NCBI GenBank assembly: GCA_017521925.1
Contig: JAFXBG010000012.1
Coordinates: 1-61,341, forward strand
Direction: 5' to 3'
Length of the DNA stretch: 61,341 nt
From: Clostridia bacterium
Lineage (GTDB): Bacteria; Bacillota; Clostridia; Oscillospirales; Acutalibacteraceae
Made by a program: the position numbers and the translations under genes. The notes below the pieces were generated by a model. That model saw nothing but the letters and a program-made list of their open reading frames with translations. It ran no database searches and was not told where the DNA came from. Shown here one piece after another: positions 47,123 through 49,300 of this stretch; the first letter of the stretch is position 1; the number at the start of each line of letters is the position of its first letter.

Positions 47123-48004
47123 ATGACTAGAAGAATGTATTTGAATTCAAAAGAAAAGTTTGAGGTTAGGCAGGTAATTTACGAAAAAACAGGTTATTGG
47201 TTTACAAGCTCTGGTATTGTAAATCAAATGTTCAGAAGAAGTTCTTTTGCGGCAGAAACAGGTCAGCAAAGCAACGAAATTTTTGAGTATATTGGAGACC
47301 AGATTCTCAGTTATTTTGTTGTGAAGATTGTTGCAGAAAGATGCGGTTCTATAAGCCTGACAGAAGATTATACTTTCCGAATCCGCGAAAATAAATTTTC
47401 ACAAATCAAGCAAGACCTGACCAACAACGAATTGCTTGCAAAAATCGTTGATGATTGGGGTATTGCAAAATACTTGTTGTTAGGTAAAAGTGATATAGCT
47501 AACGAGGTTGAAAAAGAAACCAAGGTAAAGGCAGATTTATTTGAATCTGTTATAGGTGCTGTTGCAGTAGAAAGCAACTGGAACTTTAAGGTTCTTGAAA
47601 ATGTGGTTTTAAAAGCACTTGATATGGATAATAGAATCGAAAGTATGATCAATACTGACTCAAAGGTAAGAGCTGTTGATATAGACAATGCAGTTACAAC
47701 GTTAAAAGAACTGGCAGAAACGGGTCAGTGTACAATGCCGGAATATAAGTATGCCGGTCCTGATGAAATAGGATATAACAGTGATAATACACCCAGATGG
47801 ATGTGTTCTTGTTTTGTAATAAACGAAAAAATTGGTTTATCAAGATTGGTCGAAGCTTCATCTAAAAAAGCTGCAAAAAAAGCGGCAGCATATCTGATTT
47901 TGTGCGAACACCTCGGTATGCAGAACAAGTATGGCCCTAATGATTGGTTCAGAGATTGGAGTTATAAAGACGGAAAACTCATACCAAATCGAAAGTTGTT
48001 CTAA
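47123..48004 (+). CDS. Second, non-canonical RNase III-family protein with dsRNA-binding domain
   Basis: 293 residues. The RNase III signature NEIFEYIGDQIL (51-62) keeps both acidic residues of the family helix (E52, E55, D59), and ADLFESVIGAV (137-147) keeps D138 and E141, so all metal ligands are in place. A C-terminal double-strand RNA-binding domain occupies about 186-262 (ASSKKAAKKAAAYLIL is its last helix), with an extra tail. The spacing and divergent sequence differ from the housekeeping rnc gene product (about 230 residues). It stands alone with its own promoter, and an array of small hairpins begins 71 bp after its stop. AGGAAAG precedes ATG 47123. Target unknown. Confidence 0.85.
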   Translation: MTRRMYLNSKEKFEVRQVIYEKTGYWFTSSGIVNQMFRRSSFAAETGQQSNEIFEYIGDQILSYFVVKIVAERCGSISLTEDYTFRIRENKFSQIKQDLTNNELLAKIVDDWGIAKYLLLGKSDIANEVEKETKVKADLFESVIGAVAVESNWNFKVLENVVLKALDMDNRIESMINTDSKVRAVDIDNAVTTLKELAETGQCTMPEYKYAGPDEIGYNSDNTPRWMCSCFVINEKIGLSRLVEASSKKAAKKAAAYLILCEHLGMQNKYGPNDWFRDWSYKDGKLIPNRKLF

Positions 48005-48074
48005 TAGTTATATTTACATTTTTTATAATTTGTCACCAAACCCACCAAAGTAACTTATTCACTATTACTTTTTT

Positions 48075-48244
48075 AGTGATATTGTGCCGTTGGCACAGTG
48101 ATATTTTCGCGTTGCGAAAGTGATATTGAAACCTACGGTTTCAGTGATATTATATTCGCCTATAAAACTCGCGAAGCGAATATCACTTGTATGGGGACAA
48201 ATATCACTGCGAAGCAATATCACTCGCCAAAGGCGAATATAACT
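48075..48244. repeat. Symmetric array of AGTGATATT repeats and small hairpins
   Basis: Four forward 9-mers AGTGATATT (48075, 48097, 48119, 48143) are followed by four reverse ones AATATCACT (48179, 48200, 48216, 48236; the last has one change). Each interval holds a small hairpin of different sequence: GTGCC-gtt-GGCAC, TTCGC-gtt-GCGAA, GAAACC-tac-GGTTTC, an inner ATATTCGC / GCGAATAT, TTGT / ACAA, TGC-gaa-GCA, CGCC-aaa-GGCG. As RNA or a cruciform this can fold into one long helix with a four-way junction at each step. I cannot name a described family. Confidence 0.85.
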
Positions 48245-48283
48245 GAAAGCGACAAGTTTCCGTCGAAACTTGTCGCTTTCTTT
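48245..48283. terminator. Long perfect hairpin abutting tRNA-Arg
   Basis: GAAAGCGACAAGTTTC (48245-48260), 4-nt loop, and its perfect complement (48265-48280). It ends 2 nt from the tRNA CCA. TTT follows on the plus strand. It may terminate both the tRNA transcript and any transcript crossing the hairpin array. Confidence 0.7.
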
Positions 48284-48359
48284 GGCCCGCCCGAAGGGAT
48301 TCGAACCCCCGATCTTCAGAATCGGAATCTGCTGCGTTATCCAACTGCGCCACGGGCGG
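48283..48359 (-). tRNA. tRNA-Arg (anticodon CCG)
   Basis: Minus strand: acceptor CCGCCCG pairs with CGGGCGG, followed by G and an encoded CCA. The anticodon loop is TTCCGAT, giving CCG (reads CGG). The T arm contains GGTTCGAATCC. Length 77 with CCA. Confidence 0.95.
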
Positions 48360-48674: not shown

Positions 48675-48940
48675 GCCAAAATTACTCAAAATGCCCTAAA
48701 ACGGCTTAAACACTGGGGTTTTGAGGTGTATCTAAGTAAATTTAAGAAAAGTTGAAATCACTTAAAATAAGATAAAGTGCAGTCAAAAATGCAGTCAATT
48801 GCAGTCAAAACTGCTGTCAAAAATCAAGTATTTATCCCCTTTATTTAAAGATTCTAAATCTAAATTACTATCAATAATATAAAAATCCTCCTGAATGACC
48901 TGAATCAGCTCTGACAAAGAATATTTTGGAGGTAAAAATT
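48675..48940. other. Gene-free stretch at the island edge
   Basis: It holds a GCTTAAACACT sequence (48704-48714), the tandem GCAGTCAA repeats, and the leader of tnpV with AAAATCCTCC-like AT-rich sequence. I find no integrase frame on either strand. Confidence 0.5.
48779..48824. repeat. Tandem GCAGTCAA repeats near tRNA-Leu
   Basis: Four copies in 46 bp: GCAGTCAA at 48779, 48791 and 48801, and GCTGTCAA at 48813 (spacing 12, 10, 12). They lie 139 bp after the tRNA 3' end. Short direct repeats close to a tRNA are typical of arm-type integrase or excisionase binding sites, but no integrase is in view. Confidence 0.6.
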
Positions 48941-49300
48941 ATGACAATTTCTAATATCACTTATACACAACAGGGTGACTATCTTCTCCCTGATTTAAAA
49001 CTTCCCGAACAAAAGAATTTAGAAATCGGCATTTTCGGTCAACGACATAAAATTTATTTTCTCAATCACCATAAAATCAGATATTATAATTTGCTGACAA
49101 GCTGTAAGCTTGCAGAATATTTAGCTAATGTTGATAACAGAGCTAACGATATGTTCGCTTCCCTCGTAAAACAAATAGCAGAAAACGAAAACATCACCGA
49201 ACAGCTAAAAGCAGAAAATCCAATGCTTTGGATTCAGCGTGTGAATAACATCCGTAACAGAGCAACCGAAATCGTAAACAATGAAATAATCTATACCTAA
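48941..49300 (+). CDS. TnpV-like transposon-encoded protein
   Basis: 119 residues. It matches the small TnpV proteins of Tn4451-like mobilizable elements of Clostridia: the start TYTQQGDYLLPDLKLPEQ, then the C-terminal NPMLWIQRVNNIRNRATEIV, NNEIIYT pattern. TnpV function is not known in detail. GGAGGT precedes ATG 48941. No TnpX or TnpA recombinase gene is present, so this looks like a leftover of a larger element. A second copy of its 3' end occurs at 50829. Confidence 0.85.
   Translation: MTISNITYTQQGDYLLPDLKLPEQKNLEIGIFGQRHKIYFLNHHKIRYYNLLTSCKLAEYLANVDNRANDMFASLVKQIAENENITEQLKAENPMLWIQRVNNIRNRATEIVNNEIIYT

Follow-up and report, generated by a model that had tools for sequence, protein, structure and literature searches.

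A 170-bp array of short repeats and small hairpins in a Clostridia genome is best explained, with a probability that we put at roughly 0.56, as a solo copy of a non-autonomous mobile DNA element that is kin to the S23p-encoding intervening sequences, acts as DNA, and settles beside hairpins. The array lies between the gene for tRNA-Arg(CCG) and a convergent gene with an RNase III domain (47123–48004) in the window, by which we mean the whole stretch of 61,341 nucleotides analyzed (contig JAFXBG010000012.1 of assembly GCA_017521925.1). The family recurs in related genomes with a constant plan and covarying stems; its copies are dispersed, many of them directly behind tRNA genes, and in nine places a copy adjoins an S23p gene. 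Neither Gut-1 (the Rfam family matched by the array) as a mobile element nor a general tie between PF05635, the S23p family, and heptamers was recognized in the open-licence literature searched, and we regard the full unit, its sites, and its tie to S23p and heptamers as new within that literature.

Read on the minus strand, which is the direction of the tRNA, the order is a terminator-like hairpin (H0), the left end AGTTATATTCGCCT, and three more AGTGATATT feet with hairpins between them, followed by an asymmetric centre containing the complement of the left end and then four inverted feet with three hairpins between them (Table 1). The central interval (48152–48178) is longer and asymmetric. 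The first-pass annotation of this DNA had described four forward repeats followed by four reverse-complement repeats; the four forward and three of the reverse copies are exact, but the eighth repeat, AATATAACT (48236–48244), is not. Seven exact nonamers within 150 bp are far above chance, and the 9-mer count proposed in that annotation came to nine for the window, including two singletons outside the array, against 0.71 expected from shuffling. The 16-bp perfect hairpin that it had placed beside tRNA-Arg is present. The RNase III-domain gene (PF00636) that converges on the array had no counterpart in the neighbour clusters listed for other arrays; intervening sequences are excised by RNase III. 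A TnpV gene (PF14198, E = 7e-44) at 48926–49300, downstream of a tRNA-Leu gene, is a sign of a nearby mobile element in the window.

Table 1. Parts of the array and its flank, listed in the direction of the tRNA-Arg gene (positions in the window).
Feature	Position	Strand	Basis or remark
tRNA-Arg(CCG); the array sits behind this gene	48283–48359	-	ARAGORN; Rfam tRNA 54.1 bits
H0, 16-bp perfect terminator-like hairpin from tRNA-Arg to array	48245–48280	-	arms 48245–48260/48265–48280; terminator-like on the tRNA-Arg strand
Left end (LE), AGTTATATTCGCCT on the minus strand	48231–48244	-	48231–48242 complementary to centre
Hairpin 1, overlapping LE	48225–48235	-	sequence; inside Gut-1 match 48175–48245
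Foot repeat AGTGATATT	48216–48224	-	exact copy
Hairpin 2, GCGAAGC on the plus strand	48209–48215		sequence; excerpt of PMC4686876
Foot repeat AGTGATATT	48200–48208	-	exact copy
Hairpin 3	48188–48199		sequence
Foot repeat AGTGATATT	48179–48187	-	exact copy
Hairpin 4, TCGC GAA GCGA on the plus strand	48169–48179		sequence
Centre, TTATATTCGCCT on the plus strand	48150–48161		100% complementary to LE 48231–48242; covariation in relatives
Foot repeat AGTGATATT, right array	48143–48151	+	exact copy
Hairpin 5, GAAACC TAC GGTTTC	48128–48142		sequence
Foot repeat AGTGATATT	48119–48127	+	exact copy
Hairpin 6	48106–48118		sequence
Foot repeat AGTGATATT	48097–48105	+	exact copy
Hairpin 7	48084–48096		sequence
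Last foot repeat AGTGATATT, outer end of element	48075–48083	+	exact copy
Gut-1 (RF01706) match, left arm	48175–48245	-	49.5 bits
Gut-1 (RF01706) match, right arm, opposite strand	48074–48155	+	46.6 bits

Compared with shuffled sequences, both strands of the array folded strongly, as RNA (z = -9.1 and -10.5), a check that the first-pass annotation had suggested, and as DNA (z = -7.1 and -7.3). The nested pairing of repeats 1–8, 2–7, 3–6, and 4–5 that it had put forward is the lowest-energy DNA fold of both strands, but a perfect pairing of repeat 8 and its flank (48231–48242) with the centre (48150–48161) competes with the pairing 1–8. Several of the small hairpins are absorbed into this nested fold, so the picture of two hairpins protruding at every step, as a four-way junction, does not hold.

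Each arm of the array aligned to the whole 77-position model of Gut-1 (RF01706), with E values of 3.7e-9 and 2e-8, and resembles this RNA in its three hairpins, which are separated by GUGAAAU-type linkers along the full model; the two arms fall 0.5 and 3.4 bits short of the curated cut-off of 50 bits (Table 1). In the window's genome there were nine Gut-1 matches, two of them above the cut-off, and two sister copies scored 62.4 and 60.4 bits. Gut-1 was published as a probable noncoding RNA, and Rfam classes it as "Gene; sRNA". Unlike the array, however, the model, described as an RNA, represents a single arm, without the inverted half, H0, or the pairing of left end and centre. The first-pass annotation had allowed for a named repeat family with another explanation; the arms do match such a family, but the noncoding RNA reading does not account for the inverted plan, the tRNA and terminator sites, or the link to PF05635, and is probably incomplete.

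Among the window's own genome and 97 relatives, Gut-1 matches occurred in 38 of the 98 genomes (above the cut-off in 27) and ranged from 0 to 39 per genome. The distribution was patchy within the window's genus, most genomes of which had none and others up to 13, and across the phylum, evenly sampled, a match was present in only 3 of 299 genomes, one of them the window's own. One of 14 control genomes, that of E. coli, was matched below the cut-off, so weak Gut-1 matches can arise by chance. A subtype pattern was found in at least 115 places in named genomes, the 80 listed being from Clostridia or other Bacillota by title, and a contig of the isolate Ruminococcus bromii 5AMG carries subtype A; viral contigs gave no match to either of two subtype patterns, and the window array had no match among plasmids.

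The larger unit was delineated from 99 usable stretches around listed Gut-1 matches, which were chosen blind to their surroundings, a few of them because several matches were clustered closely; together with loci from the window's own genome and further loci, these yielded 93 clusters of feet. The plan of the homologues comprises a hairpin (preceding the left end in most of those displayed), the left end, hairpins spaced by GTGATAT or GTGAAAT, a centre complementary to the left end, and an inverted hairpin array. A complementary pair of segments was present in 70 of the 93 clusters, at a spacing of 60–80 nt in 67 of the 70 (40–170 nt was allowed), compared with 7 of 118 control stretches from the window outside the array (at 62–84 nt). 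The clusters gave 77 detector rows, of which 13 failed the foot filters and one duplicated a place, leaving 63 copies at 60 loci. Two of the 63 are from the window's own genome, from which two further members recognized by eye (L002 and L010) were left out. Three left and four right feet were found in 41 of the 63 copies, and 55 were 160–185 nt long. The subtypes are distinguished by their left end (TTATATTCGCC, TAAATCCACCC, GAAATAAATCCC, ATATCCGTTCCT, and others), with accompanying changes in the centre.

Covariation was assessed in a sequence-only alignment of 32 copies. Because these rows are related and had been admitted only with a complementary arm of 9 bp or longer, the following values are inflated to an unknown degree: in the helix between left end and centre, 90.3% of the cells were paired, 102 cells carried a two-sided change against 33.7 after shuffling, and the covariation score was 0.589 against 0.220 in shuffled and at most 0.219 in slid alignments. 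Two-sided changes affected 10 of the 13 pairs in this preselected set, against 8.1 when shuffled (15 of 500 shuffles were as high), and the number of pair types showed no excess (16 versus 18.5 shuffled). From the same alignment, RNAalifold predicted three hairpins, among them hairpin 1, and paired the first full foot with the last foot, with compensatory changes in 17 of 23 pairs; it did not return the left-end/centre helix, and the covariation test therefore took a structure that we had named beforehand. The variation of the stems with their pairing kept, as the first-pass annotation had reported it, thus extends to covariation across the 32 copies. The pairing of first and last feet agrees in kind with the proposed fold, but the ladder of stacked four-way junctions was not shown to be the conserved fold, the best-supported long-range pairing being that of left end to centre. 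The observation of the array was in this way partly confirmed, and its interpretation found partial support.

Near-identical copies were found far apart. Two pairs of loci from genomes of different families shared 95.8% identity over 262 bp (L051 and L054) and 97.1% over 240 bp (L053 and L055), and two sites in one genome, one behind tRNA-Ser and the other not, shared 99.5% over 212 bp (L085 and L086). These dispersed near-identical copies indicate, at the level of sequence comparison, that the element moves, and they bear out the "repeated insertion mechanism" that the first-pass annotation had offered as an option. In at least 29 of the 63 copies, the array begins no more than 60 nt past the 3' end of an intact tRNA or tmRNA gene; 15 kinds of these genes are represented, and 29 is a lower bound because the detector mis-oriented one copy that follows tRNA-Arg (L167, counted as without a tRNA) and probably also one copy at L089. 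A CCA-type remnant precedes nine more, and in three of the nine a tRNA lies 61–300 nt away; the remaining 25 have neither an intact tRNA nor a remnant.

Judged by the complementarity of the outer arms, 7 of 20 testable non-tRNA copies appear to be nested between the arms of a terminator-like palindrome with A-rich and T-rich sides. Five of them (L146, L068, L073, L067, and L160) exceed the 95% level of mismatched pairs (p = 0.005–0.037), and the other two, L140 (p = 0.051) and L089 (p = 0.077), lie below that level and were accepted for their position and T-run; L134 scored as L089 did but was excluded, its arms consisting almost entirely of A and T. Terminator loops are the weaker case as insertion sites, and the method has a background, since 5 of 36 copies in the tRNA-linked group also exceed their own 95% level. 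The window copy follows its hairpin H0 rather than sitting in a loop. Direct repeats with a shared word of at least 11 nt were found for 13 of the 63 copies, against 0 of 63 when shuffled, and were mixed in kind and place; no target-site duplication was common to all 63. In the tails after the arrays, a TG-extended -10 motif was present in 19 of 58, compared with 7.5 expected and 4 on the other strand, and the exact TATAAT was not enriched (11 versus 8.5).

At the 44 tRNA-Arg(CCG) loci displayed, the window included, an array stands directly after the first terminator in two, the window and L167, the latter with another subtype; at L106, also a tRNA-Arg locus, the array comes after a displaced second tRNA end. 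The sequence reads N at the site in one locus and ends early in some, and L336 may retain a remnant; no exact pair of empty and filled sites was found among the 44. The terminator hairpins of tRNA-Arg differ widely between genomes while staying paired. Tandem cassettes of ~200 bp occur at six loci downstream of tRNA-Arg in the genus (L322, L324, L325, L332, L336, and L339); they contain a T-arm-like sequence in inverted orientation, a second copy of the tRNA 3' end, in most cases a AAAACAGTCC-type hairpin, and often a further terminator hairpin; judging from these features, the cassettes would constitute a second tRNA-targeting element family. At four others (L311, L313, L338, and L341), a small frame that by eye resembles a membrane protein lies right behind tRNA-Arg, without a clear terminator hairpin.

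The best-known S23p-encoding selfish elements are the intervening sequences of 23S rRNA genes. Among the Gut-1 matches listed, nine have a PF05635 match 141–174 nt downstream on the same strand (G028:C30, G010:C66, G010:C87, G074:C17, G074:C49, G062:C27, G082:C24, G082:C16, and G078:C1). These are 9 of 144 PF05635 matches in 62 genomes, where by our arithmetic ~0.01 would be expected; the other 135 are not beside any listed Gut-1 hit, and many genomes have PF05635 but no Gut-1 hit, so its presence is no predictor and the link rests on adjacency. No PF05635 match adjoins the window copy or occurs in its genome, which is 72.6% complete. An ASCH-domain gene stands behind the array and PF05635 at L062, with what looks like a TIR-type gene further on, and genes that read as methyltransferase-like (L156) and cytidine-deaminase-like (L157) lie behind other arrays.

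Upstream of PF05635 genes, a 7-nt periodicity prevailed. In 20 such loci of the genus, of which L288 and L289 were chosen for a nearby tRNA-Leu and the rest blind to the upstream DNA, the lag-7 score of the upstream 150 nt was at least 0.81 in 17, the other three being hairpin arrays by eye; the mean over the 20 was 0.81 at lag 7 versus 0.46–0.49 at lags 5, 6, 8, and 9. None of 816 control stretches of the window reached 0.76 at lag 7, nor 0.81. In control stretches from the same loci, the 95% level (lag 7 only) was 0.86, which 5 of the 20 exceeded. Heptamer arrays behind tRNAs (L288, L289, L296, and L305) have by eye the same inverted plan, with GTGAATA-type units at L305. On plasmids, 10 of 31 records matching PF05635 were read, from Spirochaetota, Cyanobacteriota, Bacteroidota, Chloroflexota, and Bacillota; the upstream lag-7 score was at least 0.76 in nine and 0.71 in the tenth, and the local 95% level of 0.90 was exceeded by 5 of the 10. 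In our reading, the high local controls probably reflect further heptamer arrays in those loci. Three of the plasmid PF05635-type matches, with heptamer-like repeats upstream (L353, L355, and L358; lag-7 scores of 0.71, 1.0, and 0.81), lie between defence-locus genes (hsdS/hsdR, drmD/pglX, and cas2/cas1).

PMC4990558 describes the intervening sequence in the 23S rRNA of Coxiella as a selfish element whose ends are complementary and which encodes S23p, the S23p start codon being preceded by tandem heptameric repeats; it sits in a 23S helix, and intervening sequences of this kind replace a tetraloop. The array family is similar to these elements in the S23p gene with heptamers before its start (at some loci of the family), the complementary ends, and the placement at hairpins. 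It differs in lying outside rRNA, in having repeats interleaved with hairpins, and in the further genes behind some copies, whereas the window copy itself has no S23p gene and is situated behind a hairpin rather than inside one, after tRNA-Arg rather than in 23S rRNA. The best reading groups the element with the S23p-encoding selfish elements, S23p (PF05635) being a four-helix-bundle protein, which an excerpt of PMC10053308 gives as homologous to Avd of diversity-generating retroelements. The heptameric repeats of Beggiatoaceae, Cyanobacteria, and Bacteroidetes (TAACTGA and others) are likewise, in the sections of PMC4679880 consulted, tandem 7-nt units near start codons with a patchy distribution; TAACTGA, however, was not found in the present analysis, and "S23" and "four helix" do not occur in the main text of that paper.

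Read in the orientation of the foot, many hairpin loops have the form C(TNC)G or C(TNNC)G, which is GNA or GNNA on the foot-complement strand; such loops were present on that strand in 99 of 181 distinct hairpins (42 of 69 left and 57 of 112 right), whereas the foot strand had none (0 of 181). According to an excerpt of PMC4686876, G–C stems capped by GNA or GNNA loops form very stable DNA mini-hairpins, the type case of which, GCGAAGC, occurs in the window as hairpin 2. The polarity of the loops inverts whenever the foot does and is therefore not dictated by a single transcript strand, a pattern that favours DNA as the acting form without proving it. Loops of the GNRA type make up 19 of the 112 distinct right-array loops, so the array may also have a role as RNA.

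We consider unlikely the published view of Gut-1 as a structured noncoding RNA, under which the array would be transcribed and would work as RNA. The Rfam entry, the strong RNA folds, and the covariation are all as this explanation would have them, but a single copy also contains the Gut-1 unit in inverted form, the polarity of the loops goes with the foot on either strand rather than with one transcript strand, the array stands behind a terminator-like hairpin and many copies lie just before a promoter-like site (the TG-extended -10), and relatives have from 0 to 39 matches. Hardly more probable is an integron-like system, in which cassettes are inserted at the 3' ends of tRNA and tmRNA genes by a tyrosine recombinase and the array is a folded attachment site. 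Small open frames lie right after many arrays, and at L157 three tmRNA 3' ends stand in a row, the second and third bounding a 1259-bp unit with H0, array, PF05635, and a deaminase-like gene; at L114, repeated tmRNA 3' ends are found in front of arrays. These tandem units resemble integrative cassettes and would also fit a tRNA-specific recombinase, for which they are the best argument. Against it, different tRNAs with hardly anything in common except CCA precede near-identical arrays, the final 16 nt of the tRNA recurred in the tails of only 2 of 29 tRNA-linked copies (L126 and L157; some tails are very short), and the terminator-loop copies have no tRNA. Nor was an integrase or transposase recognized among the 25 largest neighbour clusters, built all-against-all from open frames within 3.2 kb and named by eye, in which a rare or divergent enzyme would escape notice. 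Besides likely chromosomal neighbours (ABC transporters, helix-turn-helix regulators, and the smpB region) and frames running through arrays or tRNAs, PF05635 (8 loci) was the only recurrent candidate among them.

Neutral tandem duplication, with template switching that copies one arm onto the other so that stems stay paired, would explain paired but variable stems without selection, and the tRNA-Arg terminator hairpins likewise differ between genomes while remaining paired. We judge it quite improbable, as it is hard to reconcile with the near-constant plan and length over 63 copies, the covariation between segments ~70 nt apart, and the near-identical copies dispersed to unrelated sites. Least probable by our estimate, and very much so, is movement of REP- or REPIN-like palindromes by a RAYT (Y1) transposase. 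The likeness to REPs, as far as the consulted part of PMC3733652 describes them, lies in an unpaired foot motif with a palindrome, inverted pairs, and dispersal at high copy number, and the RAYT domain PF01797 has three matches in G069 (30 Gut-1 matches) and one in the window's genome. The foot, however, is GTGATAT or GTGAAAT rather than GTAG or CGTC, and several different stems occur within each array copy. PF01797 is absent from the other three of the four copy-richest genomes, G082 (39 matches; 86% complete), G062 (29; 98%), and G070 (25; 85%), and also from G086 (18), G045 (13), and G039 (11); a RAYT as the mover is disfavoured because PF01797 has no consistent relation to copy number.

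Under the preferred reading, a mobile DNA element akin to the S23p intervening sequences, the element would spread among gut Clostridia and settle in transcription-neutral places next to hairpins, either directly after the terminator hairpin of a tRNA or tmRNA or inside the loop of another terminator, with S23p and one further gene immediately following the array in some larger copies. The foot (GTGATAT or GTGAAAT, ~7 nt) would be the same thing as the heptamers preceding S23p genes, here with hairpins set between the repeats. We infer that the array is the site recognized by the mobility machinery, probably as hairpins of single-stranded DNA, the folded strand being the working form, and that S23p, where present, may bind the repeated foot. 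The inverted plan allows self-pairing within a single strand, by which an insertion in or next to a hairpin would remain a hairpin; behind or inside a terminator, it would lengthen the hairpin and harm no gene, which would make the element tolerable. The window copy, having neither S23p nor cargo, could have been moved in trans as a passenger or be a remnant left stranded. If this reading is correct, an orphan "noncoding RNA" motif becomes a mobile element with a testable partner protein, Gut-1 is linked to the unexplained S23p/PF05635 family and to the heptanucleotide repeats of several phyla, and transcription-ending hairpins are a niche for selfish DNA.

A broader reading, which we offer tentatively and with less than even odds, is that S23p proteins and heptamer/hairpin arrays form one widespread hairpin-homing mobility system; the intervening sequences would be its known tip, and the solo arrays that it leaves would be what has been filed as noncoding RNA. 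Such a system would insert at hairpins generally (tRNA terminators, terminators of protein genes, and rRNA loops) and carry small cargo genes, and the cyanobacterial and other heptamer repeats would be its footprints. The window's genome also contains another palindromic element (ACGGCGG... CCGCCGTTA), at L007 (1490–1670) and L009 (1465–1680), which carries hairpin arrays with a TGAAGTA-type foot.
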